Source: Blepharisma japonicum (taxonomy: Eukaryota > Ciliophora > Heterotrichea > Heterotrichida > Blepharismidae). Taken from it: 64,000 nt of DNA. The position numbers were made by a program, and so were the translations under genes. The notes beneath the pieces were generated by a model, which saw only the letters and a program-made list of their open reading frames with translations, did not search any database and was not told where the DNA came from. Positions within the stretch are counted from its first letter, which is position 1. The number at the start of each line of letters is the position of its first letter. The stretch is taken from contig CATKHK010000002.1 in NCBI GenBank assembly GCA_949751835.1, positions 620,001-684,000 of the forward strand, read 5' to 3'. This document shows, piece by piece, positions 9,232 through 60,173 of this stretch.

Positions 9232-9960
9232 TTAAAGTTTTCCTCTTCCTCGGCCTCTGCCTCTTCCTCGACCAGTTGGAGAGTTATCTTTAGCCTCTCC
9301 TCGAGGCCCAGGACTTGTATCTCTAGGAATTATGCTACCAGTTGTAGTTTTCAAAGGGGTTGCTTTATTGTCTTTATCAGGCTTTTCTGCAGGTGGAATT
9401 TTAGTCTCATCAACATCGTGAACATAAAAAGAGTCTCCTCTGCCTGTTGTATCTTTGATGTGAGTCACCACTAGAGATTTTAAATTTTTTCCAAAAATTT
9501 TTTTGATGTAGAATTCTCCTATAAGCGTCTAAATAGAAGTTACCATTGAGGTAATCATGAAAAATAAGCTTGAAATATAGAGAAATGATTGGTAGGTTTC
9601 TGGACTGGACATAGTTGCACAGGTCATATCTGATGGGATCATTGATGCATCACTTTGATCTCCACAGAGCTGAGTTGATGCTATAGCGAGTCCAAAAATT
9701 ACATAATAAATACATCATGCAAAGGTCAAGACTAGAAAAGCAGCTGAAGAAATCAGCAGTCTTTTTTTAACCCACCAAACGTTTAGGATCATAAATATTG
9801 CACTAAAGAAGCCACATATGAAGAGAAACAGTTTTACCCAGGGTCTTCATTCATCAGTTCCAAAATCATCTTTATAGGATTCATATAAGTAAGGAATTGA
9901 GAGTAGACTTGCTATCGCAAGAGTGATCGTTATTCCTAAATTATAGTAAAAATAAGTCAT
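9232..9960 (-). CDS. Four-transmembrane protein with RG-repeat tail (1 intron)
   Basis: Exons 9544-9960 and 9232-9528 joined across a 15-nt intron give 237 aa. Four hydrophobic helices are visible: LGITITLAIASLLSIPYL; LFLFICGFFSAIFMILNVWW; LLISSAAFLVLTFAWCIYYV; FLYISSLFFMITSM continuing across the splice into TLIG. A cytoplasmic-looking C-terminal region ends in a (GR)5 tail. The TM3-TM4 loop holds two Cys. Two TGA codons are read as Trp (DEWRPW and FAWCIYY). A longer start at ATG 10035 (262 aa) is possible; I prefer 9960 because it places TM1 at the N terminus. The topology resembles MARVEL or tetraspan proteins but I recognise no family. An RG tail is more typical of RNA-binding proteins. 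Confidence 0.65.
9529..9543 (-). other. 15-nt intron
   Basis: GTAACTTCTATTTAG on the minus strand. Its terminal TAG is an in-frame stop if retained; removing it joins TM4 to its continuation. A is at position 10. Confidence 0.85.
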
Positions 9961-10195
9961 ATATTTATTATGAAAATTCAATATATGAATAAATTTGAAC
10001 TTACAAATTGAGCAATTTTCGCCATTTATTAGCATTGAATTTAATCAACGAAATTTAGAAATACATGGAGTTTTTTTATTTATGAAATCTATCAATTTTT
10101 AGTATAATTTTTATGAAGTCTAAGTTTAAATTCACAAGTTGGATAATTTCTTAGAAATGATATTACATTTTATTTTTTTAATTTTATCTATTAGC

Positions 10196-12412
10196 TTAAG
10201 AAACTAATTCAATTTGGGTGCTTTCTATTTGATATTCATCTTCAAATCTTGCCACTACCTCATCACCTTCATATTCCAACACATTAAATTTAAGTGTTGT
10301 CGGGACCCTTCCTTTTCTAGATCCATCAAGTTTTCTGAGGAGTGCATAAGCTGTTCCAGTTCCTTCTCTATCTACTCTTGGACATGGATAAATTTCAATC
10401 CCTCCATCTATACTAAGTAATGGTTCTAAAAGTGTAGACTCAAGGTGCAAATTTACAACAACGTCTTCTAAAGCTTGGTTGTGCAAAGTATTTGATATAG
10501 AAAATTGCAATAATAAGCATGAAGGGTAATTGTGAGCAACCATTGTCACTATATATTCAGCAGTTTTTTCAGTCAAAATTACACTATTTGTAGACGATAG
10601 AGGTTTTCCTAATTTTTCAAGCTCAGGTATCCCTTGAAATAAATTTGTCTGAGTTTTCTCTGGCAATGATGGACCTTTATATTCTTCAGGTTCTTCCTGT
10701 ATATGTCTTGCTAATTCCAGTGTAAAAGTTCTTCCTGTATCTCTGCATTTTTTGACAGCTTTTTCTATTTGTGCAATTGAAACAGGAAGTGTGGTCTTAG
10801 GGAAATCACCCTTTTCTAAGTAATCTAAATAAAATCTAGCCCTTTCTCTAACCTCATCATCTTTATCCTCTAAACATCTATTTAGTAGGACTTTTACATT
10901 CTGTGTCAGTTCTGGGACTTTAGCAAATTTTCCTAATGCAGTGACAGCAGCTGCTCGGGATTGTCCTTTGTCAAGGATAAAGCGATTATAGATGAACCTA
11001 ATAAGTTGTGATGGGTCTTCTGACTGAGGGCCAAGCTCACCTATAAGATGGATTGCTTTACATTGAAGAATTTCGTAGTGGCAGTCTTCAATAAATTCAG
11101 CCATGATGAGCATTATTAAATCGTGGGAGCTTGGCAAGTCTTGAAGGATTTGCAGTAATGTGTCTAAGACTACAGATTTTAGCTGAAATCCACCTTCACC
11201 TTTTAAGATGTCTCCTACAAAAGTTAATAAAGTTTTTATTTTTCTAGGCATTCTTAAGCATAAAATTTTTAAGGATTCAATTAATTCAATTTTAAAGTCA
11301 TCAGTAATTTCGGTCATAAATTGAGTAATTTGTGTAATTAGCCTATCAACATTTTTTTCTGTGCTTAATTTTAATAATGTGGAGATCGCTAAGGTTGCTA
11401 ATGATCTATTTGATTCAGTAATTAAAGGTTCATAGTCAACTAGTGATCCGACTAATAAATTTTGGCATTTTATTGCATAGTGGTTGATGGTTTTAATCCC
11501 TGCGAATTTTGTTGTATTTTTCCCGGAAGCCAAAAACAGTTGTAAAACTGAAAACCCAGAACTAACATTTTTATTTTCCCATAGCTGTAGAGCATATTCA
11601 GCTAAAGTTTTGGAAGCCTCAAATACAATCATGTCTTGATTTCTCTTAAGTGACTCACAAAGATATTTTTCGATGCTTACTAATGCTGGCTTATCAAATG
11701 GAATAGTTTTTAACGAATACCGAATAAATCTAAGAAGCTGAACTTGTGCCAATGGATTTTTAAAGCCAGAAGAAATCATAAATTCAAAGAACTTGGAAAG
11801 GGCAAGAGGGTCATTTTTCTTCATCTCGAACAATAAAAGCATAGCGTGATAATGAATATTTAAATTTTTTGAAGAGAGCTTTTCTTGTACTTCTGTGACC
11901 CACCTTCTTACTACTTCTGGATGGCTTTTGCATAGTTTGAGGCCAGCAATCATAGCAGCTGAGCTGACTGTATCATTATTATCGACTATTGAATTTTTAA
12001 TAAATCTCTCCATTTGAATCAATAAAGAAGGATCCAGAATCCTGGCCATGACTCTTAGAGCGCTTGCTCGATAATAAGGACTATCTGATGTACTCACATC
12101 TCTGGATAAGGAACTTGTAATCATAAAAACTTCGCCTTCTTTAGGACTGAGCTCTTTGAGCAGCAGATAAAGCATCTTACGAATGTGAGGGTGCTGAGAT
12201 TGGTAGAGCTTGGAAGCTCTGAAAAATATTTCAGTTGATTCGTTCTGTGAAAGTTCTTCACCTTGGTTTATGAGGTATAGGATCTTAGACATCACTGGAA
12301 TTACTTCTTTAGGATCAATTGATGACGCATCAAAGCACCGGGAGTCTTGAAGAACACGAGCTTTTTCGATTTGAGCGAGAGGATCAGTTTTTACTTCATG
12401 TCCTTCTTTCAT
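10196..12412 (-). CDS. COPG: Coatomer subunit gamma, C-terminally short
   Basis: 738 aa. The N-terminal adaptin-like HEAT trunk is well conserved (EIFFRASKLYQS, YYRASALRVMARI, YHAMLLLFEMKKNDPLA, RAAAVTALGKFA). The first appendage subdomain follows (LLLQFSISNTLHNQALEDVVV). Gamma-COP is part of the F-subcomplex of the COPI coat on Golgi-derived vesicles. Usual length is about 870 aa; this protein stops at a TAA just after EDEYQIEST, the point where the family's final platform subdomain would begin. About 110 residues are missing and no in-frame continuation or 15-nt intron was found downstream, before the four-TM gene. The ARF-GAP-binding platform therefore appears absent. No TGA codons. Confidence 0.92.
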   Translation of the reverse strand: MKEGHEVKTDPLAQIEKARVLQDSRCFDASSIDPKEVIPVMSKILYLINQGEELSQNESTEIFFRASKLYQSQHPHIRKMLYLLLKELSPKEGEVFMITSSLSRDVSTSDSPYYRASALRVMARILDPSLLIQMERFIKNSIVDNNDTVSSAAMIAGLKLCKSHPEVVRRWVTEVQEKLSSKNLNIHYHAMLLLFEMKKNDPLALSKFFEFMISSGFKNPLAQVQLLRFIRYSLKTIPFDKPALVSIEKYLCESLKRNQDMIVFEASKTLAEYALQLWENKNVSSGFSVLQLFLASGKNTTKFAGIKTINHYAIKCQNLLVGSLVDYEPLITESNRSLATLAISTLLKLSTEKNVDRLITQITQFMTEITDDFKIELIESLKILCLRMPRKIKTLLTFVGDILKGEGGFQLKSVVLDTLLQILQDLPSSHDLIMLIMAEFIEDCHYEILQCKAIHLIGELGPQSEDPSQLIRFIYNRFILDKGQSRAAAVTALGKFAKVPELTQNVKVLLNRCLEDKDDEVRERARFYLDYLEKGDFPKTTLPVSIAQIEKAVKKCRDTGRTFTLELARHIQEEPEEYKGPSLPEKTQTNLFQGIPELEKLGKPLSSTNSVILTEKTAEYIVTMVAHNYPSCLLLQFSISNTLHNQALEDVVVNLHLESTLLEPLLSIDGGIEIYPCPRVDREGTGTAYALLRKLDGSRKGRVPTTLKFNVLEYEGDEVVARFEDEYQIESTQIELVS

Positions 12413-12779
12413 TTTGTTTATAATTAATGGTTAAATGGGATTTTTGGGGATGAAATATTGAGAAATTTTGAGAAATCGAGATAAAATTTGAAGTCATGAT
12501 AAATAATGAAATTGATATTTAAATAAGAAGAGATGCTCTCTGGAAAACATAGAATATTTTGGCTTATATCAGAATTATTAAAAGGTTTATTAGACTTGAA
12601 GCTGACGTGGAATTTTGCAAATGTATCTCATAATTTTGTATAATATGAATTATATAAAAATATATTTTATTATTGCTTTGATCTACTTCTATTGAAAGAT
12701 ATGTGAAATTTTATTATATTTTTTCTGGTAAGATTTTTATATTAATTATTTCTTAACTGCATCAAAATTTAAGCAATAT
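12413..12779. other. Intergenic, nothing convincing
   Basis: About 370 bp between gamma-COP start and the stop of the next minus-strand gene. A 36-codon plus-strand open frame beginning at about 12533 exists but has no recognisable relative and no flanking intron signal. Confidence 0.6.
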
Positions 12780-13598
12780 CTACAACAATTTAATCAGCTC
12801 TCTTTTATTAGATCTTAGATAGAGTCCTTGATTTCCTTTTCCATATACAAAAGCAATTTTATCCGACTTGAAATCTTTTACAAAAGCATGTACATAATCT
12901 TTATTTAAATTTTCTTTAGGTTTTTCAATATACCTATTCAATCTTTTAAATGCTGATTTTATAACCTTGTCTTCTTCATTTATTCGGTTAGTTTCTTTTT
13001 TATTTAAATTTTCTAAATTTTGGCATTCGTTTATTATCTTGTCTAGACAAACTTGAGAACTTCTTCTAGTAGATTTAAGTTTTCTTGGAGAATTCGGAGT
13101 TGTGTTTCTATATAGATCACAAGAAATTGGTCGAGAAGTAACAGCAGAGTTCGTTATAAAAGGTTTCAGTTCTAATTCAAAATGTTTTCGCTCAGTGACT
13201 GGGATTTTGTAATTTTTTTTAATTTCAGATAGCTGCAAATGCAACTTGGGACTGGACTGTTTTGAGGATGGCCTGGATAGCAAAGGATAAGATCCTATAC
13301 TATGAGAAGGTTTATGCCGAGCTGATGCAAAGTTATGCTTATCATTGATAATAAATTTACTTGGATCAGCTGGAGCAGCTTGCAATTGTGATGGCAATTT
13401 ATTTTCAAGCTTTGTTAAAGAACGCCTCAACTTTTTAGATATAGAAATCACATCGTTTGTAGACAAAAGTCCAGCTTCAACTTTTTTCTTTTTATGCACA
13501 TGATCTGTTATACTTGTAGCTGCATCTTGCAGGCTTTTTTTAGGGCTTCAATTAAGTTTAAAATGCTCCTTTTTTGATTGAATTAAGTTATGCTCCAT
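12780..13598 (-). CDS. Basic Ser/Lys-rich protein, unknown
   Basis: 272 aa from ATG 13598, including one TGA Trp (FKLNWSPKKS). The protein is basic, without membrane segments, and looks disordered with short helical pieces; Ser-Pro motifs (SPKLHLQL, NSPRKLKSTRRSS) suggest phosphorylation sites. The internal Met-like position near 13499 is a GTG and is not a credible eukaryotic start. No family recognised. It is head-to-head with the coiled-coil gene, 126 bp between starts. Confidence 0.6.
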
Positions 13599-13724
13599 TT
13601 AATTAAATGCAAACTATATAAAATTCGCAAATTTTCAGAAATACCTTTGAATAAATTCTAATTAATTTATTTTTAATCAAAGTCTTTCTCTATTTCTTTT
13701 ATAATTCTAATCGAATTACATAAA

Positions 13725-14768
13725 ATGTCAGAAGCCAGGCATCCACTTCGATCAAGTCTTCCTTCGTTCCAATCTTCACAGCATGAACGAGATGAAGAAG
13801 AACTGCGAAATATCATTTACGACTTAGACCAAAGCATCCTCGTTAACAAAAACCTACTTAAAGATGTAGTTTCTACTCTAGTCCCTCAAAAAAGTAAAGA
13901 GCATTCTAATGACACTCAAGTCACTCATTTAATTTCAAGCAAAATTCATGATAAGCTCCTAGTGGAAAATTCACGAATTATGCAGGCTATAGAAAGAATA
14001 AAAGTGGAAATAGAAACCGCAAATGGCAATATTCAAACTTTTGAAGAAAAATCTGCACAAAGTAGAAACAGGAGAAAGGATTATCAAAAGAGGATACAGG
14101 AAGAAGCCAAAAAAATGAGGCAAACACTGCATAATAAAGAAGACGAAATACAAAGATTGGAAGAATATAGAAGCAGAATTGATGAAGATATAGAAGAAAG
14201 TCAGCAAGAAGAGCAAGTAACTCCTGATAAAATTATTGAAGAAGGGAAGAAATTGGTTAATAAATTAAGCAAGCAGCTTAAACAAGCTGAGGAACAAAGG
14301 GATATTGAAGTCAGAAAATGTAAAGATTTTGAAGAAGACATTAAAAAAATCCAAGGATTAGTAAAAGTTGCAATACCAGCAGGAATTGAAATGACAAATG
14401 AAACGTTAAAAAAAGACTATGGACTTGGCTTAAATTATGAGAACTATTGGTTTGATTGTGAAATGAGCGGAGAGCTAAGCGACACTATTCAGTCGTCAAA
14501 TATGACGATAGAAGACAACATTTTTCCTAATAAAGTTGATTTTGCTAGCAAAAATAAGCATTATCTGCCGAAATTGAACTTATCAGTGGTAAGCCAAGGG
14601 GCATCACCAGAGAGAAAGCAATCACCAAGGGTAGAGCTGAGCAAACTAGAGCTGGCATTGCAGATCAAGTGCGAAGAAATCAATTCTTTGCAGAGAATAC
14701 TGAGCCACCTTGAAGCTCAAGAATATTATTTGAGTAAAGTGACCACTAAGACTGATAATAAACTGTAA
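13725..14768 (+). CDS. Coiled-coil protein, unknown
   Basis: 347 aa, ATG start, TAA stop, no intron, no TGA. The middle (about residues 20-215) is a heptad-rich coiled coil (KKMRQTLHNKEDEIQRLEE, KLVNKLSKQLKQAEEQRDIE). A short non-coiled region with aromatic residues (GLNYENYWFDCEM) follows, then a final helix. Such proteins are common in ciliate basal bodies and axonemes, but nothing here fixes the location. Confidence 0.7.
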   Translation: MSEARHPLRSSLPSFQSSQHERDEEELRNIIYDLDQSILVNKNLLKDVVSTLVPQKSKEHSNDTQVTHLISSKIHDKLLVENSRIMQAIERIKVEIETANGNIQTFEEKSAQSRNRRKDYQKRIQEEAKKMRQTLHNKEDEIQRLEEYRSRIDEDIEESQQEEQVTPDKIIEEGKKLVNKLSKQLKQAEEQRDIEVRKCKDFEEDIKKIQGLVKVAIPAGIEMTNETLKKDYGLGLNYENYWFDCEMSGELSDTIQSSNMTIEDNIFPNKVDFASKNKHYLPKLNLSVVSQGASPERKQSPRVELSKLELALQIKCEEINSLQRILSHLEAQEYYLSKVTTKTDNKL

Positions 14769-14973
14769 AATGAATAATAATATGATTTTACTTAAATAAT
14801 TAAAATTAGATAGTTTATTCAATTATTAATTTTCAGTGATATTATTGCATCATTCAAATTTGATATAGCTCGATAATAAATGGATTTGGAAAAATATACC
14901 ATAAATTTAAGCAAACATTAAAATGCTAATATATGCTGGTGAAAAATTAAGATTCATTTATAAATAAAAATTA

Positions 14974-16017: not shown

Positions 16018-16140
16018 GATAACTATTTAGAGTAGCCTTTATTAATTTTTTTCAATTTACGCTGATTAAGAAATTCAGCTTCTCTTTACTGCAATCATCA
16101 ATAATTCAAAAATTTAAATTAAAATTTTCTGAATTTGAAA

Positions 16141-16656: not shown

Positions 16657-16929
16657 TAATTTATTGTATTATTTCTGTTAAATTAACAATTTATAAGAAA
16701 ATAACTTTGCTTATATTATTTTTACATATCGAAAAAGGTTGCATTTATTTAAAAAATTTTATTTCTGATTCTGGTCAATATCATATATTCCACAAAATAT
16801 ATTAAATAAACAATTTAATAAATTTAATATATAATTGCAAACGACCAAAAAATATGCTGAAATTAGTACATTTTCAAGGTAACTTATTAAGGAAATATAA
16901 TTTAAGCTGGCTTATTTCTAATAATTAGA

Positions 16930-18541: not shown

Positions 18542-18973
18542 TTATTTGCTTTCTTCCTCTTTTTTCCCTTCTATTGCTTGCTCTGGTTCTTTTTCTGCTT
18601 TATCTTTAGCTTCAATCTCTTCTCTTCTAGGCATATGGCAGGACACATACGGCTTGAGCTACATAAAATTTACCTCAAAATTGTCAATATCCTCAGGAAC
18701 CTCTATAATAGGTGTTTTTAGTCGATTGTACCTGAACCCTTTATGTACGAATTCTCCATAAAGATTTTTGCTTTCTCTTTCAAGCTTTGCTATTGTTAAT
18801 TTTTGCCGATATTTGTCTTTGATTGTTTTCTTGATGTTATTGATGATATGAAGTGGAACAAGCCCTGGTTTCTTGTGCGCATGTTTGCCTCCAATTTTGT
18901 AGCTATAGTTTCCTAGGGATTTACGAAAAGCAGTCGCACGTGTAAAAGGTGCAAGGACATTAAGCATACCCAT
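18542..18973 (-). CDS. MRPL41: Mitochondrial large-subunit ribosomal protein mL41 (1 intron)
   Basis: Exons 18674-18973 and 18542-18658 around a 15-nt intron give 138 aa, similar to human mL41 (137 aa). The diagnostic stretch VPEDIDNF-E/LKPYVS is created only by splicing and matches mL41's VPDL-x-GF-KLKPYVS. Without splicing the frame hits the intron's own TAG and loses the conserved LKPYVS. The N-terminal half is basic (KIGGKHAHKKPG). It is a structural component of the mitoribosome large subunit. The C-terminal tail is Lys/Glu-rich and lineage-specific. Confidence 0.85.
18659..18673 (-). other. 15-nt intron
   Basis: GTAAATTTTATGTAG on the minus strand, phase 0, with A at position 10 and its terminal TAG in frame. 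Removing it restores the conserved mL41 LKPYVS motif. Confidence 0.92.
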
Positions 18974-29502: not shown

Positions 29503-30885
29503 ATGTCAGCAGCTGTAGTAAGAGAAAGAAAATCCATAAGGACACATACATCTCCTCCAGATGCAGGGCAGCCTGAATACCGAGACTATAAAATTGAAAA
29601 ATCAATTCTTAAGCCATCTCTTTCACTTACTTATCAAAACCAACCTGAAATAAATATAGTTCCTGATAGCAAAGTAGAGGGTTCTATAAATGCTTTTATA
29701 TCAGAAAATGATAAAATTGAAAAGAGTCCTAGGAAGCTGTCCCCAGCTTTTCGACAAGAAGACATTGACAATGTCAATGAAGAAACAAAATTTCCTATTG
29801 ATATTAAAGGATCTTTATCACCAGTTGATGAAGATTTCCCATCAGACGAGTCAACACCACTAGGCGTTAAGTCAACATTTTCTCAATTTTCTAACGAAAA
29901 ATCGAAGCTCAAATATTCTGAAGGCGAAATAAGAAAAGTAGGAGACGAGGACTGGTCTTGGGTACTACCGATAGAAATAGTAAAAATTATGAGAAGGAAT
30001 TGCGAAAAACCACAAAAGCTGATACGAGACAGCTCTAACTATAAAAATAATTGGCGTGCTGAAGAAGATGAAACTCAGAAAAAAATTAGGCAAGGCGCAA
30101 TTGAAACTACTAAAAAAGTTAATGCCGAGAAAACAACTAAAGAAAAAATCCTATGCCAAATTAAAATAATCTTGAATAAAATGAGCCTTGTAAATTTTGA
30201 CAAGCTTAAGGAAGAATTATTTGAAATTGCTAAGTCCAATGAAGAATATCTAGAGCCATTAGCAGACGCGATTTTTCAAAAAGCCTGTTTTGAGAAAAAA
30301 TATGTAGGGATATATGCTGATTTATGCAAATATTTATCTGGCAAGTATTTAGATTTTCAGCTTGGATATAAAGAAGATCCCATTAAAAGGACGCAAGACA
30401 GTTTATTTAGGAAAATTCTCTTAAATATATGCCAGGAATCTTTTGAAGATATGTGAACAAATAATTTTAAGCACAAAAATGAGCCAGTTTATAAAATTAA
30501 AAGTTTAGGATGTGCAAAATTTATAGGTGAGCTTTTTAAAAATGGTTTTATTCCACCAAAAATTATTTTTACTTGTCTTATGGAATTAATCAGCGAAGAT
30601 TTTAAAGAAAAATACAAAAATCCTGATATAAACTCTTTACAACTTGATGACGATAAATTAGAAGGAGCAATTTTGATACTAATAGCAGGTGGACTTGCTT
30701 TCGAAAATGAAAAAAATTTATCTAGAACTAATGCGGTAGTTAATGCGCTTAGTGAAATAATGAATCGAAATCTGACCAATTCGCGAAACAAATTTTTAAT
30801 ACTAGTAACAATTATTTAGGATATGATTGAACTAAGAGCTTCAGGCTGACAGCCAAAGCCAATTGAATCACCTATCATTAATTAA
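29503..30885 (+). CDS. MIF4G-domain translation factor, eIF4G-like (1 intron)
   Basis: Exons 29503-30804 and 30820-30885 join across a 15-nt intron; 455 aa. A disordered Ser/Lys-rich N terminus is followed by a MIF4G HEAT domain (about residues 215-445): ILCQIKIILNKMSLVNFDKL, ADAIFQKACFEKKYVGIYADLC and, after splicing, KFLILDMIELRASGWQPK, the family's canonical last helix. eIF4G-type MIF4G domains bind eIF4A and scaffold mRNA recruitment to ribosomes. Two TGA codons are Trp (DMWTNN and SGWQPK). The N-terminal region is short and may include an eIF4E-binding site, but I could not identify YxxxxL-phi confidently. Confidence 0.85.
30805..30819 (+). other. 15-nt intron
   Basis: GTAACAATTATTTAG, phase 0, A at position 10, terminal TAG in frame. 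Splicing produces the canonical MIF4G ending DMIELRASGW. Confidence 0.92.
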
Positions 30886-33685: not shown

Positions 33686-35647
33686 ATGGGTCAGAGTCAT
33701 TCATACCAATCTTTAAGAATCCAAAATAGCTCAAAACATAAGCACACCCATCGACTCTCAGATGGAGATCGCCCTCATGGATCATCAAAGACATTTTGCA
33801 TCCTTTTTGATACAGAACAAGTCCACATCCAAGTACTTGACGATAACTTGACCTGTGGCTGACTATTATCTGAAGTAATTCGACTCTATAAAGGAGATAA
33901 GCAAATAATAGGTCTCCAAACTGTAAATAATATAGATATCCTTGATTTTTGGTTAAGTGACTATGAAAGACCGCTTCAACCTTTCAAAGACAACGAAACT
34001 TTTGTTCCAATATATGAAGAAGAAATTTCAAAAGAAATATCAACAGCTCATTTTTTACCAATAAGAACTATTGGAAAAGGAGGATTTTCAAGAGTTATTG
34101 AAGCTAGAAAGCTAGATTCTGGGATTATTTATGCAATAAAAATTATGAGCAAAAGCTTTGTGATTAACGAAGAAAAAGTTATACAAATATTAACTGAGAG
34201 AAGTATTATGGGAAAGGTTAAGCATCCTTTTATTGTAGATTTACATTGAGCCTTTCAAACTGTAATTTCTAGCTAGGGAAAAGAGCTTTTTCTTGTAATG
34301 GATTTTTGTCCAGGGGGAGAGTTATTTTTTCATCTGCATAACCTCGGAAGGTTTACAGAAAAACAAGCCAAATTTTATTTTGCTGAAATTTTGTTAGGGC
34401 TGGAGTATTTGCATAATATGAATGTTATATATAGAGATTTAAAGCCAGAAAATATTTTACTAGATATGGATGGTCATATAAAATTGACAGATTTTGGTTT
34501 GTCCAAAGAAATATTTTCTAATAGAGGGAGAAGCTACTCTTTTTGTGGATCCCCAGAATATATGAGTCCTGAAATGCTGAAAGGCACTGGGCATGGCAAA
34601 GAGGTTGATTTTTATAGCCTTGGAGCTTTATTATTTGAAATGTTAACAGGTCTTCCTCCATTTTATGACTCAAATAGATCGAAAATGTATATAAGAATTC
34701 TTCAAGAAGAATTAAACTTACCGAACTTCATTAGTGAAGAAGCTAGAGATCTATTATCCAGGCTCCTTGAAAAAGACCCTGAATTGAGGATTGGATGTAC
34801 TATTGGGGCTGAAGAAATTAAATCACATCCATGATGCCAAAAAATTAATTGGAAAAAATTTGAAAATAAACAGATTTTGCCTCCGTTTCGGCCAAATTTA
34901 AGATACCCGAACTTTGATCCTGAATACATGGCTATTCCAATAGATTTAAATGAATTCTTTGAAAACTCTCCAAATTTGCCGGATGACCCCTTTGAAGAAT
35001 TCAATTTTTGCAGCACAGAAAATGAGCAAAAATTCTCAATTTTTCCTAAAAATGGCATCCAAGCAGACATATCTGCTATATCAACTCAAGCAAGCAAGTC
35101 TACAGGCTTCATGAGCCGAAATATTTCTTTGACGAATTCAGCAATTGCTGAAGAAGAAGATGATGTAAACACTACTCATATCAAAGAATTCCAGCCTGTA
35201 AGCTCACCTAAAGCTTTATTAGATCAAGCGAAAAGAAGGAGAGATACAGAAGTTTCTGAAAAAAAATTTAAATTTTCTTTGAAAGATTTAAAAAATCCTC
35301 CAAAGAAAAGAGCTCTTAATTTAGCAATTTTCCCAACGAATTCAAAGCCTGCACGAATGATTAATGATAGGCAAAATACAGAAATTTTGCTTAAAAGTCC
35401 AAAGTCTTATATAACATTTGACAAAGAAATAAATCAATTAGCTGAATCAGCATCTCCGTCAGTAAGAATTAATAAAAAACAAAAAAGGCATACATTTAAG
35501 CCAGAAATAATTAAAAAAACTCCGAAAACTCAAGATATTTTGCAAGCAAACAAAGTTGCCGATGTTTTAAATGAAATAGAAAAGAAAATAAAAGCAAAAC
35601 CTGGCAAAAAAAGAATAATAAAAACTAAAAATAATGTAATAATTTAA
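33686..35647 (+). CDS. AGC-family Ser/Thr protein kinase (1 intron)
   Basis: Exons 33686-34261 and 34277-35647 give 648 aa. The kinase domain (about residues 124-425) has G-loop IGKGGFSRV, Lys152 (YAIKIM), YRDLKPEN with Asp246, DFG at 264-266 and an activation loop [42 protein letters not shown] across the splice is textbook AGC. An AGC C-terminal tail follows, with a hydrophobic-motif-like FEEFNF. A roughly 100-residue N-terminal domain (FCILFDTEQVHIQVLDD ... FWLSDYERPL) looks ubiquitin-like; MGQSHS at the N terminus suggests myristoylation. Three TGA Trp codons (CGWLL, LHWAF, HPWCQ). Upstream signals and substrates are unknown. The C-terminal 220 residues are basic and disordered. Confidence 0.92.
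34262..34276 (+). other. 15-nt intron
   Basis: GTAATTTCTAGCTAG, phase 0, A at position 10. Retention gives an in-frame TAG within the kinase N-lobe; removal produces the canonical [12 protein letters not shown] segment. Confidence 0.95.
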
Positions 35648-36907: not shown

Positions 36908-37150
36908 TTAGCTCTTCTGCGCTGATTGGATAATTTGGAATATTGCTGCTTAAAAATCACCTGAACCGACTACTACAAAGAGGAAGAAGGCTAAAAGAAT
37001 TGGACCAACAGTAAGACCGTCATCTTTTTGTTTCTACTTGGAAATTACTGCAAGTGAGGCTGGAACTTTGCCTCTTTTATCGATATTTGACATGTGCTGT
37101 TCAGTGACCAGCCTTATTTGCTTCTTGGATGACTAAGTAAGACTTACCAT
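36908..37150 (-). CDS. SERP1: Stress-associated ER protein SERP1/RAMP4 (3 introns)
   Basis: Four tiny exons (37148-37150, 37049-37132, 36961-37033, 36908-36945) separated by three 15-nt introns give a 65-aa protein, the size of human SERP1 (66 aa). After splicing, the N-terminal KKQIRLVTEQHMSNIDKRG matches [20 protein letters not shown]; the tail-anchor helix [20 protein letters not shown] and IIQS match [23 protein letters not shown]. Exon 1 is just the ATG codon. The protein sits in the ER membrane at the Sec61 translocon and stabilises new membrane proteins under stress. No uninterrupted frame of useful length exists, so ORF-based annotation would miss it. It converges on the sorting nexin, 41 bp apart. 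Confidence 0.93.
36946..36960 (-). other. 15-nt intron
   Basis: GTGATTTTTAAGCAG, phase 1, A at position 10, in-frame TAA if retained. The only intron here beginning GTG and ending CAG. Its removal makes the conserved [11 protein letters not shown]. Confidence 0.9.
37034..37048 (-). other. 15-nt intron
   Basis: GTAATTTCCAAGTAG, phase 0, A at position 10, terminal TAG in frame. Separates the cytosolic head from the tail-anchor exon of SERP1. Confidence 0.9.
37133..37147 (-). other. 15-nt intron immediately after the start codon
   Basis: GTAAGTCTTACTTAG, phase 0, A at position 10, terminal TAG in frame. It follows the ATG of SERP1 directly, leaving a 3-nt coding first exon. Confidence 0.85.
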
Positions 37151-53022: not shown

Positions 53023-53110
53023 TTTCTTTTCTTTTAAAGAACTTATCTTTCAAAGATTTGTTTTATTTATCTGCAAGCAGTCCTCTTTCTTTAAAACACA
53101 CAAATATAAA

Positions 53111-55246
53111 ATGGAAGATTTAATCTCAGTCAATTTTGATTACCAAGCTAAAGGATCTGATTTTCAATTAGGCATGCAAATAGACTACCCTAGCCCAGAT
53201 CTTTATGAAAATGCAGCTTATAAGCCTCACTACAACCAATTTTCTCCATCTCCTATCGCAAATATCGATTTAAATCAAAAATTACTCGAAATGGTTACTC
53301 AGCAGTCCGCTTTTCAACAGCAAATCATAAAGCTTCAAGCTGATTTATTACAAATTGAAAAAGAAAGCACAAGCAAAGACGCAGAAATCAAAAAATTAAA
53401 TAAGCAAGCGAAACAGTTTCAGATTCAGATCGAAGAAAAAACTAAAAATCTGCAAGAGCTTAATATCAATTATCAAGAAAAATTCAGAAATTTTGAAGCT
53501 CAAAATCAAGAACTCCAATCAGCTAATTTAGATCTAGAACAAAAAATTGCATCATTGTCAGCCGCATTAGAACAAAAAACTGCTCAATATGTAAAATTAC
53601 AAAATGCATATAAAGAAAGAGAAAAACGAAGAAGTACTGCTGAAGTTATGCTTGATCAGCAGGAAACAAATAATAAAGACTTGATACAGAAAAATGTGAT
53701 ATTAGAGAAACAAGTACAAGATCTCGAAAAAAAGAATAATGAAAACAACAGAATTATAATGAAACTAAGAGCTGATATTCAATCCACAGATGAAGTTATG
53801 GGACAAAGAGACTCACAAGTAAAGAAAGTCTTAAATAAAATAAAACAGCAAGAAAGTGATATTGTAAAATTAAGAGAAGAAAATAAGAAAAAAGATGACA
53901 CTATCTATCAACTACAAGTAAAGGCCGATTTTTTAGAAAAAAACCTTGAGGAGACTAAAACTGTTTATAAAGAAAGAGATATGAAAAAAGCTTTACAACA
54001 GATATCTGCAAAAGACAGTGAGTTAAAACTTATGAAAGAAATGGCTAAAAATTGGCAGCTTCAATTTAAAAAAGCAGCTGATTCTGGCAAAAGTAAAAAA
54101 CCTGTAAAACTGCCTCCAATTGCTGTCGAAGAAAAATTTGCAGAAAAACCATCAGATAAAAAATTAAGGTTCAGAGAAAATTTAAGAGCTAAAAATTTCA
54201 GAAAACCTGAAGAGTCAAAGTCAGCAGAAACAAATATTATTTCAGCCCCAGGAGATTCTGAAACATCACCACATAAGCAAGTAAGAAAAGGAACCCCAAA
54301 ACCAAAAAATCAAAAAATTTCACATGATAGTGCTCTCAACAGTGTAGGGTCATCAATAAAAGGATTTCCTGAAATAGAGAGGATTGAGATGAAAAGTGAC
54401 GCATCAAGTGGTTTTGAAATCGCTTTTAGAGGTAGAAGCGATGATAAACTTAATGAAGAATTTGGAAGCCCGAACTATGATAAAGATATTAATTTTCGAA
54501 ATATTGATAGCCCTGAAGTTGATTATAAATCAATTTCTTCCCCAGAATTTGAAGTAGTTAAAAGTGCGAAAATTAATATAGAAAAAATTGATCCAAGGAG
54601 TCAGAATAACCCTCAAGGATATATAAATAACACCGAAGAAATGCCACAAGAGAAGGAATTTGTTGAAAATTATCGTGAAGAATATATTCCAGCCAACCAA
54701 TCACCGAACTTTGGGAACGAAGAAGTCAACCAAGAAGAGAATTATCCTGAGCCAGAATACCCTGAAACAACATATCCTGTAGAAGAGCCCAAAAACTTCA
54801 GCCCAGATCCTCCAGCAGATGAAGTTGAAATTCAGCCAATAAAAAGTGAAGAAATTTCTAAACAACCAGAGCAATTAGAAGAAAACGTTAATTGGGGTGA
54901 AAATTTAGAAGATGTAGATTATTTTTCTAGAGACAAGCACGAAGAAGCTACTGAAAATCCAAGAGACCAATATGAGCCTGAAGTGCAACAGCCAATTATA
55001 GCCAAAAAAGAGTCCATTAGAAACCCTCCAAGCGAGAGAGCTGTAGAAGTTGAGCCTTCTCCTCAAACTAATAAAACCCAATTAAACAGCCAAGCAACAC
55101 AGCAAGAAGAATATGAAGCAGAAGAGTTAAATGAAGAAGAAATACCCAAGGAGGAGAAGGAGGAAGAGGAGGAGGGTGAAGGCAGCTCTGAAGAAGGTGA
55201 AGAAGTTGGAGATGTGGATTTAGAAGATCTAGAAGAAGATTTTTAA
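53111..55246 (+). CDS. Long coiled-coil protein with acidic C terminus, unknown
   Basis: 711 aa, no TGA, no intron. A continuous coiled coil spans about residues 55-315 (LDQQETNNKDLIQKNVILEK, LEKKNNENNRIIMKLRADIQ, KVLNKIKQQESDIVKLREEN). The rest is disordered, Ser/Pro/Glu-rich with SPE/SPN phosphosite-like motifs, ending in a very acidic tail (EEEEEGEGSSEEGEEVGDVD). Likely a cytoskeletal or basal-body scaffold; identity not recognised. Confidence 0.78.
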   Translation: MEDLISVNFDYQAKGSDFQLGMQIDYPSPDLYENAAYKPHYNQFSPSPIANIDLNQKLLEMVTQQSAFQQQIIKLQADLLQIEKESTSKDAEIKKLNKQAKQFQIQIEEKTKNLQELNINYQEKFRNFEAQNQELQSANLDLEQKIASLSAALEQKTAQYVKLQNAYKEREKRRSTAEVMLDQQETNNKDLIQKNVILEKQVQDLEKKNNENNRIIMKLRADIQSTDEVMGQRDSQVKKVLNKIKQQESDIVKLREENKKKDDTIYQLQVKADFLEKNLEETKTVYKERDMKKALQQISAKDSELKLMKEMAKNWQLQFKKAADSGKSKKPVKLPPIAVEEKFAEKPSDKKLRFRENLRAKNFRKPEESKSAETNIISAPGDSETSPHKQVRKGTPKPKNQKISHDSALNSVGSSIKGFPEIERIEMKSDASSGFEIAFRGRSDDKLNEEFGSPNYDKDINFRNIDSPEVDYKSISSPEFEVVKSAKINIEKIDPRSQNNPQGYINNTEEMPQEKEFVENYREEYIPANQSPNFGNEEVNQEENYPEPEYPETTYPVEEPKNFSPDPPADEVEIQPIKSEEISKQPEQLEENVNWGENLEDVDYFSRDKHEEATENPRDQYEPEVQQPIIAKKESIRNPPSERAVEVEPSPQTNKTQLNSQATQQEEYEAEELNEEEIPKEEKEEEEEGEGSSEEGEEVGDVDLEDLEEDF

Positions 55247-55358
55247 AATAAATTGGTTAGATTTGCCATTTTAATTAAGCTGTTTTATTTATAAATATTT
55301 ATTTTATAAATTCATAATAAAACAGTCATTAATTAAAAAGTCAACAAATTATACAAAT

Positions 55359-57362
55359 TTAGCTAATTTTTACTCTTGTGCCTTTCGGCGAAGGCAAGGC
55401 TGATTTTTTTGATTTAACAGGAGCTGATGATTCTACTGTTAACTCATCTAAGAATCTACTAGGAATTAGTTGATCTCCGTTATTACTTTGCTGCGCACAA
55501 GAGAGCACTAAAAATCTTTTACTTCTTGTGCACGCTACATAAGCTAGTCTCCTTTCTTCTTCAAGTTGTTCTGGATGCGTATTTGCAGGTAAAATGGACT
55601 CATTAAGTCTAATTAAAAAAACTAAATCTCATTCTTGACCTTTTGCTTGATGAATGCTTGTGAGAGTCACTACGTTTGCAATTAATTCATTTGTTCCACC
55701 AATGGATTCTAAGAAAACACTTAGTCCTTGAGCCCCCCTTTCAGTGTGGCTTCTTGATAGTTTTTGCAAAGGTTCAATTATTTGTTTATTAATTCCTAGC
55801 CTCTCACACATTAGTTCAATAAGTGCAGACGGAGGATATCTTTCTAATAATTCTTGGAAATGTGTAATTGTGATACAAAATTCATTGAAACCTGTTTTTA
55901 ATTTCCCTTTTCCAGTTAAAGATATTATTTTGCAAGCTTCAAACATGGGGATTTCTTTGAGACAACTCATTTCTTTAAGTTTGTCAATAGAATTGGACCC
56001 AATGCCTCTTTTCGGCCAATTTATGATATCCAGTAATATATCATCGCAATTTGTGTCAAGAATAAATTTCAAATAAGAGACGAGGCCTCTGATTTCTGCG
56101 TTAATCATTATATTTTTTTCTTTAGGGATTCTTTGTCTTACAGGAATTCCTGCTTTTTCGAACTCTGGCTGCAGATCATTAAAAATACGATGAAGTCTAT
56201 ATAAAACTGCAATATTTTTATATTCTAATTCATATGCATCTTTTATTCTCAATAAAATATTGACAACTTCTTTAGCCTCTTCTCTTATTGATTGAGCGAT
56301 AAAAATTTGGCATTTATTCCCTAGGGTATTGTTTGTAAAAACATGCTTAACTTCACGTCTTTTATTATTTGTGATAAGCCCTTGTGAAATGTTGACTATA
56401 TGCTGTGTTGATCTATAATTTTCATTCAAAATAATTTTCTCAGATTCTGGATAAAGATTTTTAAACTCCTCAAAGACTTGGCTTGTTGCACCTCTCCAGC
56501 CATAAATTGCTTGGTCGTCATCTCCACATACTGTTACATTTGCAAATTTTCCAATTAGTTCGATTAACTCTAATTGCATTGAATTGGTATCTTGGAACTC
56601 GTCAACAAGAATATATTTATATTTTCGTTGATAATTTTCTAAAACTTGCTGGTGGCTTCTAAGCATATTTGTAGTTAAATACAGAATATCACCTAGGTCT
56701 ATAGATTTTATTTCTCTAAGTTTCGAGTTGTATATAAAAAACAAATGCTGAAACGGTCTATTTAATTTTGTGAACGCAGTCCTGTCTACTTTTGCTCTAC
56801 AGAGAACACCATTAATATAAGAAAAAGACCCTGGCCTAAGGTTCAAGCTAGATCTTCTCATTTCAGAAGGCTGATCATTTATCTCTTCCTTCATAACAGC
56901 CATTTGTTCTTCACTCAATGGCTTGACGTCTTCTTGATACAAATCGTCCTCTGTATATCTTTTTAAAAAATCTTCAAGTGCGCTTTCAAGGACTTTTTTC
57001 TGTTTATTTCCAGAAACTATTTGAAAATCATAAGGAATTTTGGCTCGTCCAGCATTAGCTCGTAATATATACAACGCAAAATGGTGGAAAGTCCCTACAG
57101 TCAAATCATCAGCTCTTACATGTCTTGGCAAGTTTAAAGCTAGTCTCCTTTTCATTTCCATCGCTGCTTTCTTTGTAAAAGTTAAGACTAGAATATTTGC
57201 TGGACTTACGTTTAAATTCAGAAGGTATGCCACTCTTAACGTCAAGGTTAAGGTTTTTCCTGATCCTGGAGCTGCTAAAATCATCAAAGACTTGTCTAGA
57301 AATTCTGTGGAGGCTTGGAATTGATTCCTGTTTAAATTTCGAAAATCTCCATGTTGAATCAT
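55359..57362 (-). CDS. UvrD/Rep-family SF1A DNA helicase
   Basis: 667 aa from ATG 57362; an in-frame GTG at 57389 is not a credible start. SF1A motifs are complete and ordered: Walker A AAPGSGKT (about residues 30-37), TFTKKAAMEMKRRL, VDEFQDTN, VCGDDDQAIYGWRGA, NENYRST, TSIHQAKGQEWDLVF and EERRLAYVACTRSK. The Trp of QEWD is TGA and is needed to reach motif VI. These enzymes unwind DNA 3'-5' and remove recombinase filaments (UvrD/PcrA in bacteria, Srs2/FBH1 in eukaryotes). Proteins of this compact form are more typical of bacteria, yeast Srs2 being longer. A mitochondrial presequence is not obvious. Confidence 0.9.
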
Positions 57363-57681
57363 TTCAATATAAAATATCCCGCTCTTCACATATTTTTCAA
57401 TTGTAGCTTGTTGTGAATTATTTTAAATTTAATTGATTAATTTCTTTGAAGGACATAATAAGCTTACATATTAAATTTGTTATAATATTAAGGATGTTCT
57501 TATAACAAAAATAATTCTCATTTGATGAAATATTAATTTTTAAATTAATTTTTTGCTTAATTTTTGTTAAATCCCCTTTATGTAATCCGCTATTAGTTCA
57601 TAAGTATTTCCCCATCCTATTCAAATTCCCCAAAACTTTTAAGGGCCAACCCAATTAAAGTATATTTCATTATAATAAATA
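57363..57681. other. Divergent promoter region
   Basis: About 320 bp between the helicase and cyclophilin start codons. AT-rich; no gene seen. It should contain both promoters. Confidence 0.6.
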
Positions 57682-58194
57682 ATGGCCGCAACCAGAGTTT
57701 ACTTTGACATTACCATTGGAGATCAGCAAGCAGGAAGAATCATCTTCGAGCTTTTTAGAGAAACTCCAAACACCTCCGAAAACTTCAGAGCTCTCTGTAC
57801 TGGCGAAAGAGGCATGGGAAGATCAGGAAGACCACTTCACTACAGAGGTTCTGCTTTCCACAGAATTATCCCTCAGTTTATGTGCCAAGGTGGAGATTTC
57901 ACCCGTGGAGATGGTACCGGTGGAGAAAGCATTTACGGCGAAAAGTTCAGAGATGAAAACTTCATCAAGCGCCACACCGAGCCTGGCCTTTTGTCAATGG
58001 CTAATGCAGGTCCTAACACCAACGGATCACAATTCTTCATCACCACAGTCCCTTGCCCACATCTTGATGGCAAACACGTCGTTTTCGGAAAAGTTGTTGA
58101 AGGAATGAATGTTGTCAGAGCTATGGAGCAACAAGGAAGCCAAAGCGGACGCCCACGCCAAAGAGTTGTTATTGCAAACAGTGGCCAGCTTTAA
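57682..58194 (+). CDS. Cyclophilin-type peptidyl-prolyl isomerase
   Basis: 170 aa, cyclophilin A size. Active-site and cyclosporin-binding residues are present: [37 protein letters not shown] and [16 protein letters not shown]. It catalyses cis-trans isomerisation of prolyl bonds; a single-domain cytosolic form with no targeting signal. Trp at the usual cyclosporin position is replaced by His (PHLDGKH), which is common in non-CypA types. Codons are visibly more GC-rich than the neighbours, suggesting high expression. Confidence 0.97.
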
Positions 58195-58454
58195 AGGTTA
58201 AGTAATCAAGGATTGAAATAAATTTTGATAAGTAATAAGAAAGGAGAGATAATAATTCTTCTGATAGAGATGTAAAAGGGAAATACACAAGCTTTACTGT
58301 GAGAGCATAGAAACTATGGCGTTGAGATTTATGAAAAATTATTAGGATTGTCATAGGGTTGTTAATAGTTCTTAAAATGTGAATGAATTTTCACTGGAAT
58401 TAAAGGGTTTTATTATTGCTGAAAGATAGAGAAATTGAAATAGTATTGCATTAT

Positions 58455-60173
58455 TTATACAGGAAGAGCAGGTAGAAGAGAGCTATTGTTTATAAGATCG
58501 TTTGCTTCGTCGTCGTTTATGAAACTGCTGCTTTCCATATTTCTAATCATGTCCCAAGTAATTCTATCTTTTCTCTGCATAAGCTGCATTCTTCTAAGAT
58601 CTAGTTTTAGTTTATTTGGAACTGATATAGACCTCTTTGGGTTTCTTTCTTCTTTTTCTCTTTTTCAATCTGAAATTCTTTGTTTTACTTCTGTCTGGTC
58701 TTTAAATTTATATTTTTTACTTAAATCATACTCTGGCATTCTAAACCCAGCTTTTTCATTTGAAAATGCATATTTAAAACCTCTGGTTTTTTGCATATAA
58801 ATTTCTTGGTTATCACATTGCAGGTACTGGTAAAGTAAGTTTCTTTTTGCAACGAGACCAATTTCAGATTCTTCAGAGCCGACTTGAATATTATAAAATA
58901 TTTCAGCCAAACAATCAACAGCACAGAAAAATTGTGATAAAGTCATTTTTCTGCCACATTTTGAATTATTTATAAATACCTGTGAAGCTTGCTGCGGATT
59001 TAGCCTTTGAATTCCTTTTTTATCTGAAATCCCAAAATCATTGCAAAATTTAAGAAATTGGCTTAAAGTCATAAATTGCTTTAATTTTGTTAAATGCTCA
59101 AATGTGGGCGACCTTGTCAATTCTTGTGTTTGTGAAGCATAAAACGAAAAAATTGCTTTAAGGCCTTTCACTTGTTTTTCCATAAGATTTTCATCAGAAA
59201 TTTTTATAGATTTTGTATTTGAGCTAGAATAGATAATTTCCATTTGATCAACCATGTCTTTTAGGTCACTGATGCAATGCATATCAGAACCGTAAGTACT
59301 TATTAGTTCTTTATACTCATTTATTGTGTTTTGCAGTTGAGCATGATAGGATAAGCGGCTAAAGGATTCTTTAGCTGCCCACTCTTCAAATAGCTCAAAA
59401 CACTGTGAAAATGTTATCTTCAGGTATTTCATAGAAGATTTTGTAGGAGAGCCATCGATGTGCTTAAAGCGATTCTCAATCATTCTATCGAAAAGAAAAA
59501 GATCTTTGTCTCCAGGAAGCTTCATTAATTGCAATATTTCTCGCAAAATTCTCTTTAGTTTAATAGCTTCAATCATTTTTTTCCCAGTAGGGTCATTAGC
59601 TAGTAATATATTTTCAATATCAGTATGGTATTCTTTTAAATAAGGTTCAAGCCAATTTTGCTTAACTTTTCCAAACAAATTTGGGTTGTTTACGCTTTGA
59701 GTTATTAGGCCTTTAAGGTTAATAGGAGTGTTCTGCTTGTTTTTCAACAATCTTTCACTGTTTGGAGTATTTCACTTCTCTTCAGTATCATTCGAAATAA
59801 TAGTTGATATTTGTTTTTCATCTAAGCTTATAGGATTATTCAAAGGTCTGATGGCACTGCTATCAATTTCTTCATTAAGCATAATTCCCATTCCTTTTGT
59901 CAAATAGTTTCCAAGCCTTATTTTAAATTGCTCTAACGTGACTTCTCTATATATTTTTTACTCAGGGTTAATAATTTCGTTATGATCAAAAGGGTTTTTC
60001 CTCATCTTGAAATAATCTTTAACGTCCCTTAAATCTATATCAAACTCAGCATTTAAATCTCGAAGTAGGTAAGAAATGCATTTGTGTATATTAATTTGCC
60101 CATTTCTAGCATATTTTGAGAAGATTTTCTCAGTTTTTTCTCCTGAAATTAAATCATCAAGCAGTTCTTCCAT
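58455..60173 (-). CDS. Helical protein, possibly EF-hand-like, unknown (1 intron)
   Basis: Exons 59962-60173 and 58455-59946 joined across a 15-nt intron; 567 aa. TGA Trp codons occur at EKWNTPNSE and SDWKREKE. The N-terminal part (GEKTEKIFSKYARNGQINIH, FKMRKNPFDHNEIINPEE) and mid parts (FKHIDGSPTKSSMKYLKITF, RLNPQQASQVFINNSKCGRK) read as degenerate EF-hand-like helix-loop-helix units, without clean DxDxDG loops. No TM. The C-terminal region is basic. It may be a lineage-specific cytoskeletal protein. Head-to-head with MON1, only 27 bp between starts. Confidence 0.65.
59947..59961 (-). other. 15-nt intron
   Basis: GTAAAAAATATATAG on the minus strand, phase 2, A at position 10. If retained, the codon GAG is followed directly by TAA. 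Removal joins NPE to EVTLEQFK. Confidence 0.85.

Follow-up and report, generated by a model that had tools for sequence, protein, structure and literature searches.

Fifteen-nucleotide introns of Blepharisma japonicum and the in-frame stops of their splice signals

The window discussed here, which is the whole stretch of 64,000 nucleotides of Blepharisma japonicum that was analysed, contains eight introns of 15 nt. They appear to be real and match the 15-base introns known from heterotrich ciliates. Very probably they are ordinary U2-type spliceosomal introns of this heterotrich class, and their in-frame stops would stem mostly from the splice signals. Presumably such an intron opens with GTAA, closes with (T>C)AG and branches at the adenosine of position 10, which lies in a yUnA-like context. 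With length and signals fixed, the splice signals would therefore provide two of the three phases with an in-frame stop: in phase 0 it would be the 3' TAG, in phase 2 the TAA within GTAA. In phase 1 a stop is expected mainly where a purine happens to follow T9-A10 at position 11. Upon intron retention, translation of most mRNAs would stop immediately, which would make them candidates for nonsense-mediated decay (NMD); in about one intron out of seven, the stopless ones, retention would add five residues.

To our knowledge, no intron class is shorter than the one of 15 nt. The way in which a lineage copes with introns that are almost all divisible by three becomes a testable question, and at stake are the decay upon retention of a 15-nt intron and whether the stop comes free with the splice signals. 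The junctions are supported here by DNA and protein homology, and we infer splicing, branching at A10 and the decay of retained transcripts. Sequences, phases, the genome-wide motif excess, the homology-backed stopless examples and the UPF1/UPF2 domains (see below) were observed directly.

The eight introns and their host genes

All eight 15-mers were confirmed (Table 1), two on the forward strand (30805 and 34262) and six on the reverse strand. A preliminary description of the window had listed their coordinates, the length of 15 nt, a 5' GT(A/G)A, an A at position 10 and a terminal AG, all of which hold for each of the eight. The 5' end is GTAA in seven cases and GTGA in intron 36946 only; the latter ends with CAG, the seven others with TAG. 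Position 10 is A throughout, which supports its presumed role as branch point as a likely one. An in-frame TAA or TAG is present in 8/8, as had also been claimed, and in the six phase-0 introns it is the 3' TAG itself. The stop of intron 36946 includes the presumed branch A. When phased blind to their content (see below), the seven GTAA introns fell into the phases assigned to them, and 36946 fell into phase 1 with zero margin.

Table 1. The 15-nt introns of the window and the gene that harbours three of them
Feature	Position	Strand	Phase	In-frame stop	Gene or structure
Intron GTAACTTCTATTTAG	9529..9543	-	0	3' TAG	predicted membrane protein
Intron GTAAATTTTATGTAG	18659..18673	-	0	3' TAG	mitochondrial ribosomal protein mL41 family
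Intron GTAACAATTATTTAG	30805..30819	+	0	3' TAG	eIF4G-like protein
Intron GTAATTTCTAGCTAG	34262..34276	+	0	3' TAG	AGC protein kinase
Intron GTAAGTCTTACTTAG	37133..37147	-	0	3' TAG	RAMP4/SERP1, right behind ATG
Intron GTAATTTCCAAGTAG	37034..37048	-	0	3' TAG	RAMP4/SERP1
Intron GTGATTTTTAAGCAG	36946..36960	-	1	TAA, intron positions 9-11 (3' end CAG)	RAMP4/SERP1
Intron GTAAAAAATATATAG	59947..59961	-	2	TAA out of 5' GTAA	
RAMP4/SERP1 gene	36908..37150	-			four exons: 37148-37150, 37049-37132, 36961-37033, 36908-36945

Homology backs six of the eight introns, three in RAMP4/SERP1 and one each in mL41, eIF4G and the AGC kinase. The first exon of RAMP4/SERP1 codes for the start methionine alone. The spliced product matches Pfam RAMP4 with 76.6 bits and aligns to SERP1 (8rjb_4) without a gap over residues 2-63, hence across the second and third junctions; at intron 37133 homology starts immediately downstream. 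The spliced mL41-family protein (18659) is gapless at the junction when compared with 6z1p_AI (Ribosomal protein L27; E 3.3e-12), its Pfam match to MRP-L27 (24.4 bits) being slightly below the 25-bit cut-off. Equally gapless is the eIF4G-like protein (30805) versus eIF4G1 (8huj_B; E 1.5e-18); its 91-residue piece on its own gave no Pfam match. In the AGC kinase (34262), Pkinase spans the junction with 143.8 bits, and the alignment with Sgk1 (7pue_A; E 5e-40) has no gap there.

It is highly improbable that any of the eight is a frameshift, a sequencing error or a pseudogene rather than an intron. The suspicion could be raised for 9529 and 59947, for which the Pfam search gave no domain support across the junction (9529 had a sub-cut-off match only), and for 37133, where the one-codon exon puts the 5' side beyond the reach of homology. 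Yet the gene finder (see below) called both 9529 and 59947, the motif is present in 8/8, and homology spans the junction in five others and begins directly after 37133.

The window contains seven further sites of a looser motif (GTGG, GTGA or GTAG; A10; any NAG) that are stopless in the coding frame; they are candidates only. Searching the window with Rfam at gathering scores yielded no match, and no tRNA was found in it.

A genome-wide class of 15-nt introns

That TGA is sense and stops are limited to TAA and TAG, as the preliminary description had it, is corroborated by two counts. In 264 kb, 38 open frames have 500 codons or more if the stops are TAA and TAG, versus 21 if TGA is counted too, and predicted genes longer than 150 codons contain 222 TGA versus 417 TGG codons.

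On both strands of the 45.19-Mb genome (224 contigs), GTAAN5ANNTAG occurs 4920 times versus 1138 for its 18-nt control, and GTAAN5ANNCAG 1960 times versus 1136. The 18-nt motifs have the same reading-frame relation as the 15-nt ones; they were used instead of a reversed-pattern control, which was set aside because its composition is unlike that of the motif. In the window, sites less than 150 nt from its ends being left out, GTAAN5ANNTAG is found seven times, each time as a claimed intron, versus about 1.6 expected from the control density (1138 sites/45.19 Mb).

A gene finder with knowledge of GT..AG alone and flat lengths of 9-40 was run on 264 kb. It made 9-13 calls at exactly 15 nt, whereas eight control dinucleotide pairs gave 0-2 such calls apiece; the de novo intron length peaks at 15 nt, which is the dominant length. 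Position 10, which was unused in calling, was A in 8/8 of the 15-nt calls of the flat-length run and in 20/20 of a run favouring lengths 15/16 (18 once two tandem copies are left out). Intron 9529 was called in both runs and 59947 in the latter, which, unaided, recovered only these two of the eight window introns. An earlier scan that scored single codons in flanks fixed at 40 codons was powerless. Introns of 16 nt are a minor class (343 YTA-TAG sites versus about 150 by chance). No sizable class with A or G at position 13 was seen; RAG15 (n=23) resembles RAG18 (n=28).

The genome holds three copies of U2 snRNA, as expected for a major (U2-type) spliceosome, and the one copy that was read contains GTAGTA. 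A UPF1 domain is found at two places (206 and 134 bits) and an Upf2 domain once (38.9 bits). Judged from these domains, NMD machinery is present.

In-frame stops: splice signals, ascertainment or selection

For content-blind phasing, sites were taken non-randomly in listing order from contigs 1-3. The TAG15 sites (n=77) comprised 40, 10 and 16 in phases 0, 1 and 2, with 11 outside same-strand coding; for CAG15 (n=83) the numbers were 23, 11, 23 and 26. Among the controls, TAG18 (n=30) had four in phase 1 and 26 outside same-strand coding, and CAG18 (n=24) three in phase 0, four in phase 1 and 17 outside. The control-subtracted estimates (n 77, 71, 30 and 24) cover introns with 5' GTAA; one cell, that of stopless CAG introns in phase 1, yielded -79 and was taken as zero. 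They amount to about 4,980 GTAA-type 15-nt introns genome-wide, distributed over phases 0/1/2 as 56/12/32% (interval for phase 1, 5-21%). An in-frame stop is present in 0.86 of them (bootstrap 0.77-0.94), and about 14% are stopless. The earlier statement that every one carries a stop is correct for the eight cases but finds no support as a law. A stopless 15-nt intron keeps the frame open; therefore the rule is largely one of ascertainment, and the stop in all eight is owed largely to ascertainment plus splice consensus.

In the same genome 15-nt introns without a stop seem indeed to exist, e.g., at C1:174039, C1:174167 and C2:893635, as far as homology can tell. The 35 stopless 15-nt sites and 11 control sites, together with three that were classed as non-coding at that stage, formed the pool from which 16 candidates and four controls were picked by eye for recognisable domains. 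In 10 of 12 assessable candidates the site-spanning Pfam family scored higher once the 15 nt were removed, with gains for, e.g., Mito_carr (+11.3 and +11.8), Synaptobrevin (+8.7), Ras (+7.4) and PX (+6.6). The best family lost score in 3/3 assessable controls upon removal of 18 nt, by just 0.9 in C1:311179, where the lower-ranked WD40_Gbeta rose by 1.6. Read through, a Rab-like protein aligns to the Rab1 chain 2rhd_A only with two gaps around the site, of 3 and 2 residues. The other two assessable candidates, kinases whose sites are alike, lost score on splicing (Pkinase -1.9 and -1.8, PK_Tyr_Ser-Thr -3.1 and -5.3), and in the spliced Ras candidate a second family, Roc, lost 1.5 bits. The Pfam test was unusable for candidates 437007, 594294, 578760 and 520050 and for the 18-nt control 634479, the site being outside the matched domains. 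C3:520050 was counted as non-assessable with its site between domains; when it was spliced, the EF-hand_7 score dropped from 34.2 to 22.3 bits with the loss of another stretch, whose place is not shown, and a weak match to DUF5048 covering the site disappeared. Surveys built on broken open frames miss stopless 15-nt introns and produce gene models with five spurious residues. This practical lesson on survey bias is firmer than the evolutionary question.

As to the latter, pure splice consensus (TAG, GTAA) and ascertainment by open-frame reading, with zero selection on stops, may account for the pattern; we consider the chances of this to be about even. It agrees with the homology-backed stopless introns and with the ratio of T to C at the third-last base, which is about 3:1 in 15-nt YTA sites (2192 versus 743) and no lower in 16-nt ones (343 versus 126, chance not yet subtracted). 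The stop excess over phase-shuffled introns that the preliminary description proposed to test for is not significant overall in the sequence-based set: the weighted stop fraction of YTA introns (n=63) is 0.75 versus a phase-randomised null of 0.73 ± 0.05 (P 0.32). Consensus and ascertainment leave unpredicted, however, the scarcity of phase 1 and the difference in T13, the T before AG, which amounts to 0.86 in phase 0 versus 0.65 in phase 2 (bootstrap difference 0.05-0.40).

Alternatively, selection against translated retained introns might keep the stops and, in phase 0, favour TAG, as in the 3n introns of Paramecium. This is conceivable, if rather doubtful. It would fit the T13 difference, for which 15/15 subset/threshold combinations gave odds ratios above 1 (1.85-4.07; Fisher p 0.025-0.233), the rarity of phase 1, which has no built-in stop, and the presence of UPF1 and UPF2 domains. 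The stopless introns and the position of the YTA set inside its null argue against it, and so does the T fraction of 16-nt introns, whose 3' TAG is in frame in neither phase 0 nor phase 1: at 0.89 (0.65-1.0) it is at least as high. Phase 1 displays no excess of purine at position 11 (3/16, versus 9/44 in phase 0 and 9/29 in phase 2), its T13 of 0.80 lies between those of the other phases with a wide interval (0.46-0.96), and at gene ends UAG is the less used stop (28/147). The former suggestion that there may be added selection for TAG at the 3' end fits the higher T13 in phase 0, but the null test and the equally T-rich 16-nt introns do not favour it. The extra T in phase 0 is a modest, suggestive excess, and selection of TAG as a stop is possible but unproven.

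The 3' TAG was rejected as proof of stop selection, TAG being the prevailing end in the other two phases and in introns of 16 nt as well. Proto-splice-site preference was considered as a cause of the scarcity of phase 1; in this small sample the phases had no base in common at -1 or +1.

To return to splice signals as the main source of stops, it might be their doubling as stops (UAA via GTAA in phase 2, UAG via TAG in phase 0) that allows heterotrichs to afford 3n introns, phase being a selected trait. We regard this as unlikely. If true, phase 1 should be depleted and phase-0 introns should hold extra T at the third-last base. UAA and UAG are exactly the codons that are still stops after UGA reassignment. 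In Condylostoma stops are ambiguous, and in such relatives with sense UAA/UAG the pattern should fail or change.

Comparison with known systems

Introns of 15/16 nt in heterotrichs and A10 in Stentor are already published. Slabodnick (2017) reportedly found 15-16-nt introns in Stentor coeruleus, and Jaillon (2008) is said to have described stop-enriched 3n introns in Paramecium. According to Bondarenko and Gelfand 2016 (PMC5014332), 3n introns of Paramecium and other ciliates often have in-frame stops, NMD being the proposed check, and are under-represented in most length ranges; here, in contrast, the dominant length itself is 3n. Unlike the Paramecium type, the stops here sit in the splice signals, and their excess over a phase-randomised null is non-significant. 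PMC11441545 assigns to Loxodes magnus, of the sister group of heterotrichs, very short introns too, yet with a mode of 17 bp and depletion of 3n instead of the 15 nt seen here; for heterotrichs about 95% of introns are stated to be 15 bp.

In Stentor coeruleus, 92.8% of 8806 annotated introns have 15 nt, according to Nuadthaisong 2022 (PMC9505925); the introns are of the GT-AG type, 8005 of them have the branch A at position 10, and all major snRNAs are reported. The terms 'stop codon', 'nonsense' and 'in-frame' did not turn up in a search of its main text. Stentor thus shares the 15-nt GT-AG introns and A10 with the organism studied here, but uses the standard code, whereas TGA is sense here. 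In Blepharisma stoltei, according to Singh 2023 (PMC9942806), UGA encodes Trp and introns are predominantly of 15 and 16 bp in an AT-rich genome of 41 Mb, versus 45.19 Mb here; sense UGA and 15/16-nt introns are common to both.

Eight putative introns of 15 nt

All eight 15-nt introns listed in the preliminary description lie where it placed them (see table), and the A at position 10 (A10), its presumed branch point, is present in 8/8. Their phases were taken from the reading frames on both flanks. That TGA is a sense codon also holds: open frames of at least 500 codons number 38 with TAA and TAG as stops versus 21 if TGA is a stop too, and predicted genes contain 222 TGA versus 417 TGG codons.

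Coordinates of introns and related features (window positions, or contig:position in the 45.19-Mb genome)
Feature	Position	Strand	Details
15-nt intron	9529	-	GTAA..TAG, phase 0, retention stop 3' TAG
15-nt intron	18659	-	GTAA..TAG, phase 0, retention stop 3' TAG
15-nt intron	30805	+	GTAA..TAG, phase 0, retention stop 3' TAG
15-nt intron	34262	+	GTAA..TAG, phase 0, retention stop 3' TAG
15-nt intron	36946	-	GTGA..CAG, phase 1, retention stop TAA at intron positions 9-11
15-nt intron	37034	-	GTAA..TAG, phase 0, retention stop 3' TAG
15-nt intron	37133	-	GTAA..TAG, phase 0, retention stop 3' TAG
15-nt intron	59947	-	GTAA..TAG, phase 2, retention stop TAA of GTAA
Looser-motif 15-mers	4543, 31995, 46289	+	content-blind phasing
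Looser-motif 15-mers	2127, 9761, 44659, 56786	-	content-blind phasing
U2 snRNA	C41:9489-9679		161 bits, above Rfam cut-off
U2 snRNA	C12:268511-268701		157 bits, above Rfam cut-off
U2 snRNA	C33:149801-149993		131 bits, above Rfam cut-off, lowest
UPF1-type zinc-binding domain	C32:96935-97393		206 bits, long open frame
UPF1-type zinc-binding domain	C54:277779-278231		134 bits, long open frame
Tandem duplicate genes	C1:56314-59002		15-nt introns at two matching places (56314/56786, 58516/58988)

Protein homology supports six of the eight putative introns. Three belong to a RAMP4/SERP1 gene of 65 codons (36908-37150, minus strand), whose spliced product scores 76.6 bits with Pfam RAMP4 and aligns without gaps to SERP1 over residues 2-63. 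Its first exon comprises the start Met only, ATG being followed directly by GTAAGT; the homology argument for 37133 is therefore just that the protein continues directly after the intron. Alignments without a gap at the junction were further obtained for 18659 in mL41 (chain 6z1p_AI; Pfam MRP-L27 24.4 bits, slightly below the 25-bit cut-off), for 30805 in an eIF4G-like protein and for 34262 in an AGC kinase (Pkinase 143.8 bits; aligned to Sgk1). The genes of 9529 and 59947 gave no useful Pfam domain match; both introns were called by a gene finder in a run favouring 15/16 nt.

This gene finder used codon usage, two stops and GT..AG introns of any length from 9 to 40 nt, and was applied to 264 kb (C1:1-200000 plus the window). 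Depending on the penalty, it called 9-13 GT-AG introns of length 15, versus 0-2 for each of eight other dinucleotide pairs. A10 was seen in 8/8 calls of 15 nt with flat lengths and in 20/20 in the run favouring 15/16 nt, two of the latter being tandem-duplication copies; that run found only 2/8 of the introns listed for the window.

Branch sites commonly follow a consensus of the yUnAy type. At 40 phase-0 TAG sites, T7 occurs in 26, T or C at position 8 in 34, T9 in 29 and T11 in 24, a pattern at positions 7-11 that fits such a site with A10 as the probable branch base. The genome holds three copies of U2 snRNA, and the one read contains GTAGTA. A retained phase-2 intron would present UAA at once, a retained phase-0 intron UAG as its fifth codon.

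Genome-wide counts and phases

A 15-nt intron lacking an in-frame TAA or TAG keeps the frame open and is thus invisible to a reader of raw sequence. This ascertainment bias (ASCERTAINMENT) was avoided by counting motifs in the whole genome: GTAAN5ANNTAG (TAG15) occurs 4920 times and GTAAN5ANNCAG (CAG15) 1960 times, the 18-nt control versions 1138 and 1136 times. Sites were phased by flanks of up to 300 nt after deletion of the site itself, so that phasing was blind to its stop and 3' base; sampling was not random but followed the order of the listing for contigs 1-3. Phases 0, 1 and 2 and positions outside same-strand coding received 40, 10, 16 and 11 of 77 TAG15 sites, and 23, 11, 23 and 26 of 83 CAG15 sites, the latter including 12 picked for a strong branch context (YTA). 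Among 30 TAG18 controls, 4 fell into phase 1 and 26 outside; among 24 CAG18 controls, 3 into phase 0, 4 into phase 1 and 17 outside. A prior, less sensitive classifier had found no intron among these 54 controls. The same phasing reproduced the phases of the seven GTAA introns of the window and put 36946 into phase 1 with a margin of zero.

After exclusion of the 12 YTA-picked sites and of margins below 1, and with controls subtracted (n = 77, 71, 30 and 24; two tandem copies retained, one negative cell, -79, set to zero), the genome is estimated to contain about 4,980 GTAA-type introns (bootstrap 4,490-5,480), with 56/12/32% in phases 0/1/2. An in-frame stop is estimated for 86% (77-94%) of them; in the YTA set (63 sites, duplicates removed) the weighted stop fraction is 75%. 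The statement that every intron carries a stop stands for the eight; for the genome as a whole it is not supported.

Introns without an in-frame stop

Homology supports the existence of such stopless introns. Sixteen candidates were picked by eye for recognisable domains (13 from a list of 35, plus three others), and each was scored against Pfam with the 15 nt left in and taken out; in 12/16 the site lay inside a domain. Removal raised the score in 10 of these 12: Mito_carr by 11.3 and 11.8 (C1:174039 and C1:174167, which share a gene), WD40_Prp19 by 9.1, Synaptobrevin by 8.7, Ras by 7.4 (yet Roc fell by 1.5 in that candidate), PX by 6.6, TatD by 3.2, Ank_2 by 2.6 and 2.0, and Sec23 helical, under its cut-off, by 1.7. 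The two whose scores fell are kinases, the site having a similar place in the activation segment of both (Pkinase -1.9/-1.8; PK_Tyr_Ser-Thr -3.1/-5.3). At C3:520050, one of the four non-assessable candidates, the EF-hand_7 score, 34.2 bits with the 15 nt, was 22.3 without them, and a weak hit to DUF5048 spanning the site disappeared, which speaks against removal there. Four of 11 18-nt controls were taken; in the three assessable ones the best family lost 0.9, 8.3 and 15.9, a lower-ranked family gaining 1.6 in the first.

The unspliced Rab-like protein at C2:893635, aligned to a Rab1 chain, shows gaps of 3 and 2 residues flanking the site. By eye, its stopless CAG intron and a TAG intron with a stop in the Rab1-like gene at C1:263069, both phase 0, seem to occupy corresponding places in a Rab-like pair. 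Seven looser 15-mers of the window (GTGG/GTGA/GTAG, A10, NAG), in coding frame and without an in-frame stop, are either chance or candidate stopless introns.

Origin of the stops

In our reading, the stops come from the splice consensus. Selection may instead maintain them, or favour an extra 3' TAG in phase 0, as had been suggested. T before the 3' AG is indeed found in 86% (78-95%) of phase-0, 80-82% (46-96%) of phase-1 and 65% (50-77%) of phase-2 introns; phase 0 exceeds phase 2 by 0.215 (0.05-0.40), with odds ratios of 1.85-4.07 and Fisher p of 0.025-0.233 over 15 subset/threshold combinations. Introns are scarce in phase 1, the only one that lacks a built-in stop, and factors of nonsense-mediated decay are encoded: an Upf2 domain and a UPF1 domain at two places, apparently two paralogues. 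However, the stop fraction of the YTA set lies within the phase-randomised expectation (0.753 versus 0.729 ± 0.049, P 0.32). Phase 1 has no surplus of purine 11, which would complete TAA or TAG (3/16 versus 9/44 and 9/29). Introns of 16 nt, which in phases 0 and 1 carry their TAG out of frame, show T just as often (fraction 0.89, 0.65-1.0, from YTA counts of 343 and 126 with chance levels taken into account). UAG is also the minor stop at gene ends (28/147 predicted genes of at least 150 codons). In addition to what the splice consensus supplies, TAG may be modestly preferred in phase 0.

The genetic code, intron length and composition of the assembly point to a Blepharisma. UAA is reported to make up 91% of Blepharisma stops (PMC4967479). 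A search of titles and abstracts found no phase-by-phase stop analysis of 15-nt introns, although one may exist. A term search of the Stentor intron paper (PMC9505925) likewise found no stop-codon analysis; there, 92.8% of introns are 15 nt long and the branch A is at position 10 in 8005/8806. Blepharisma stoltei has introns of 15/16 bp and UGA as Trp (PMC9942806), about 95% of heterotrich introns are 15 bp and those of Loxodes are depleted in 3n lengths (PMC11441545), and introns of other ciliates are described as enriched in stops and depleted in 3n lengths (PMC5014332).
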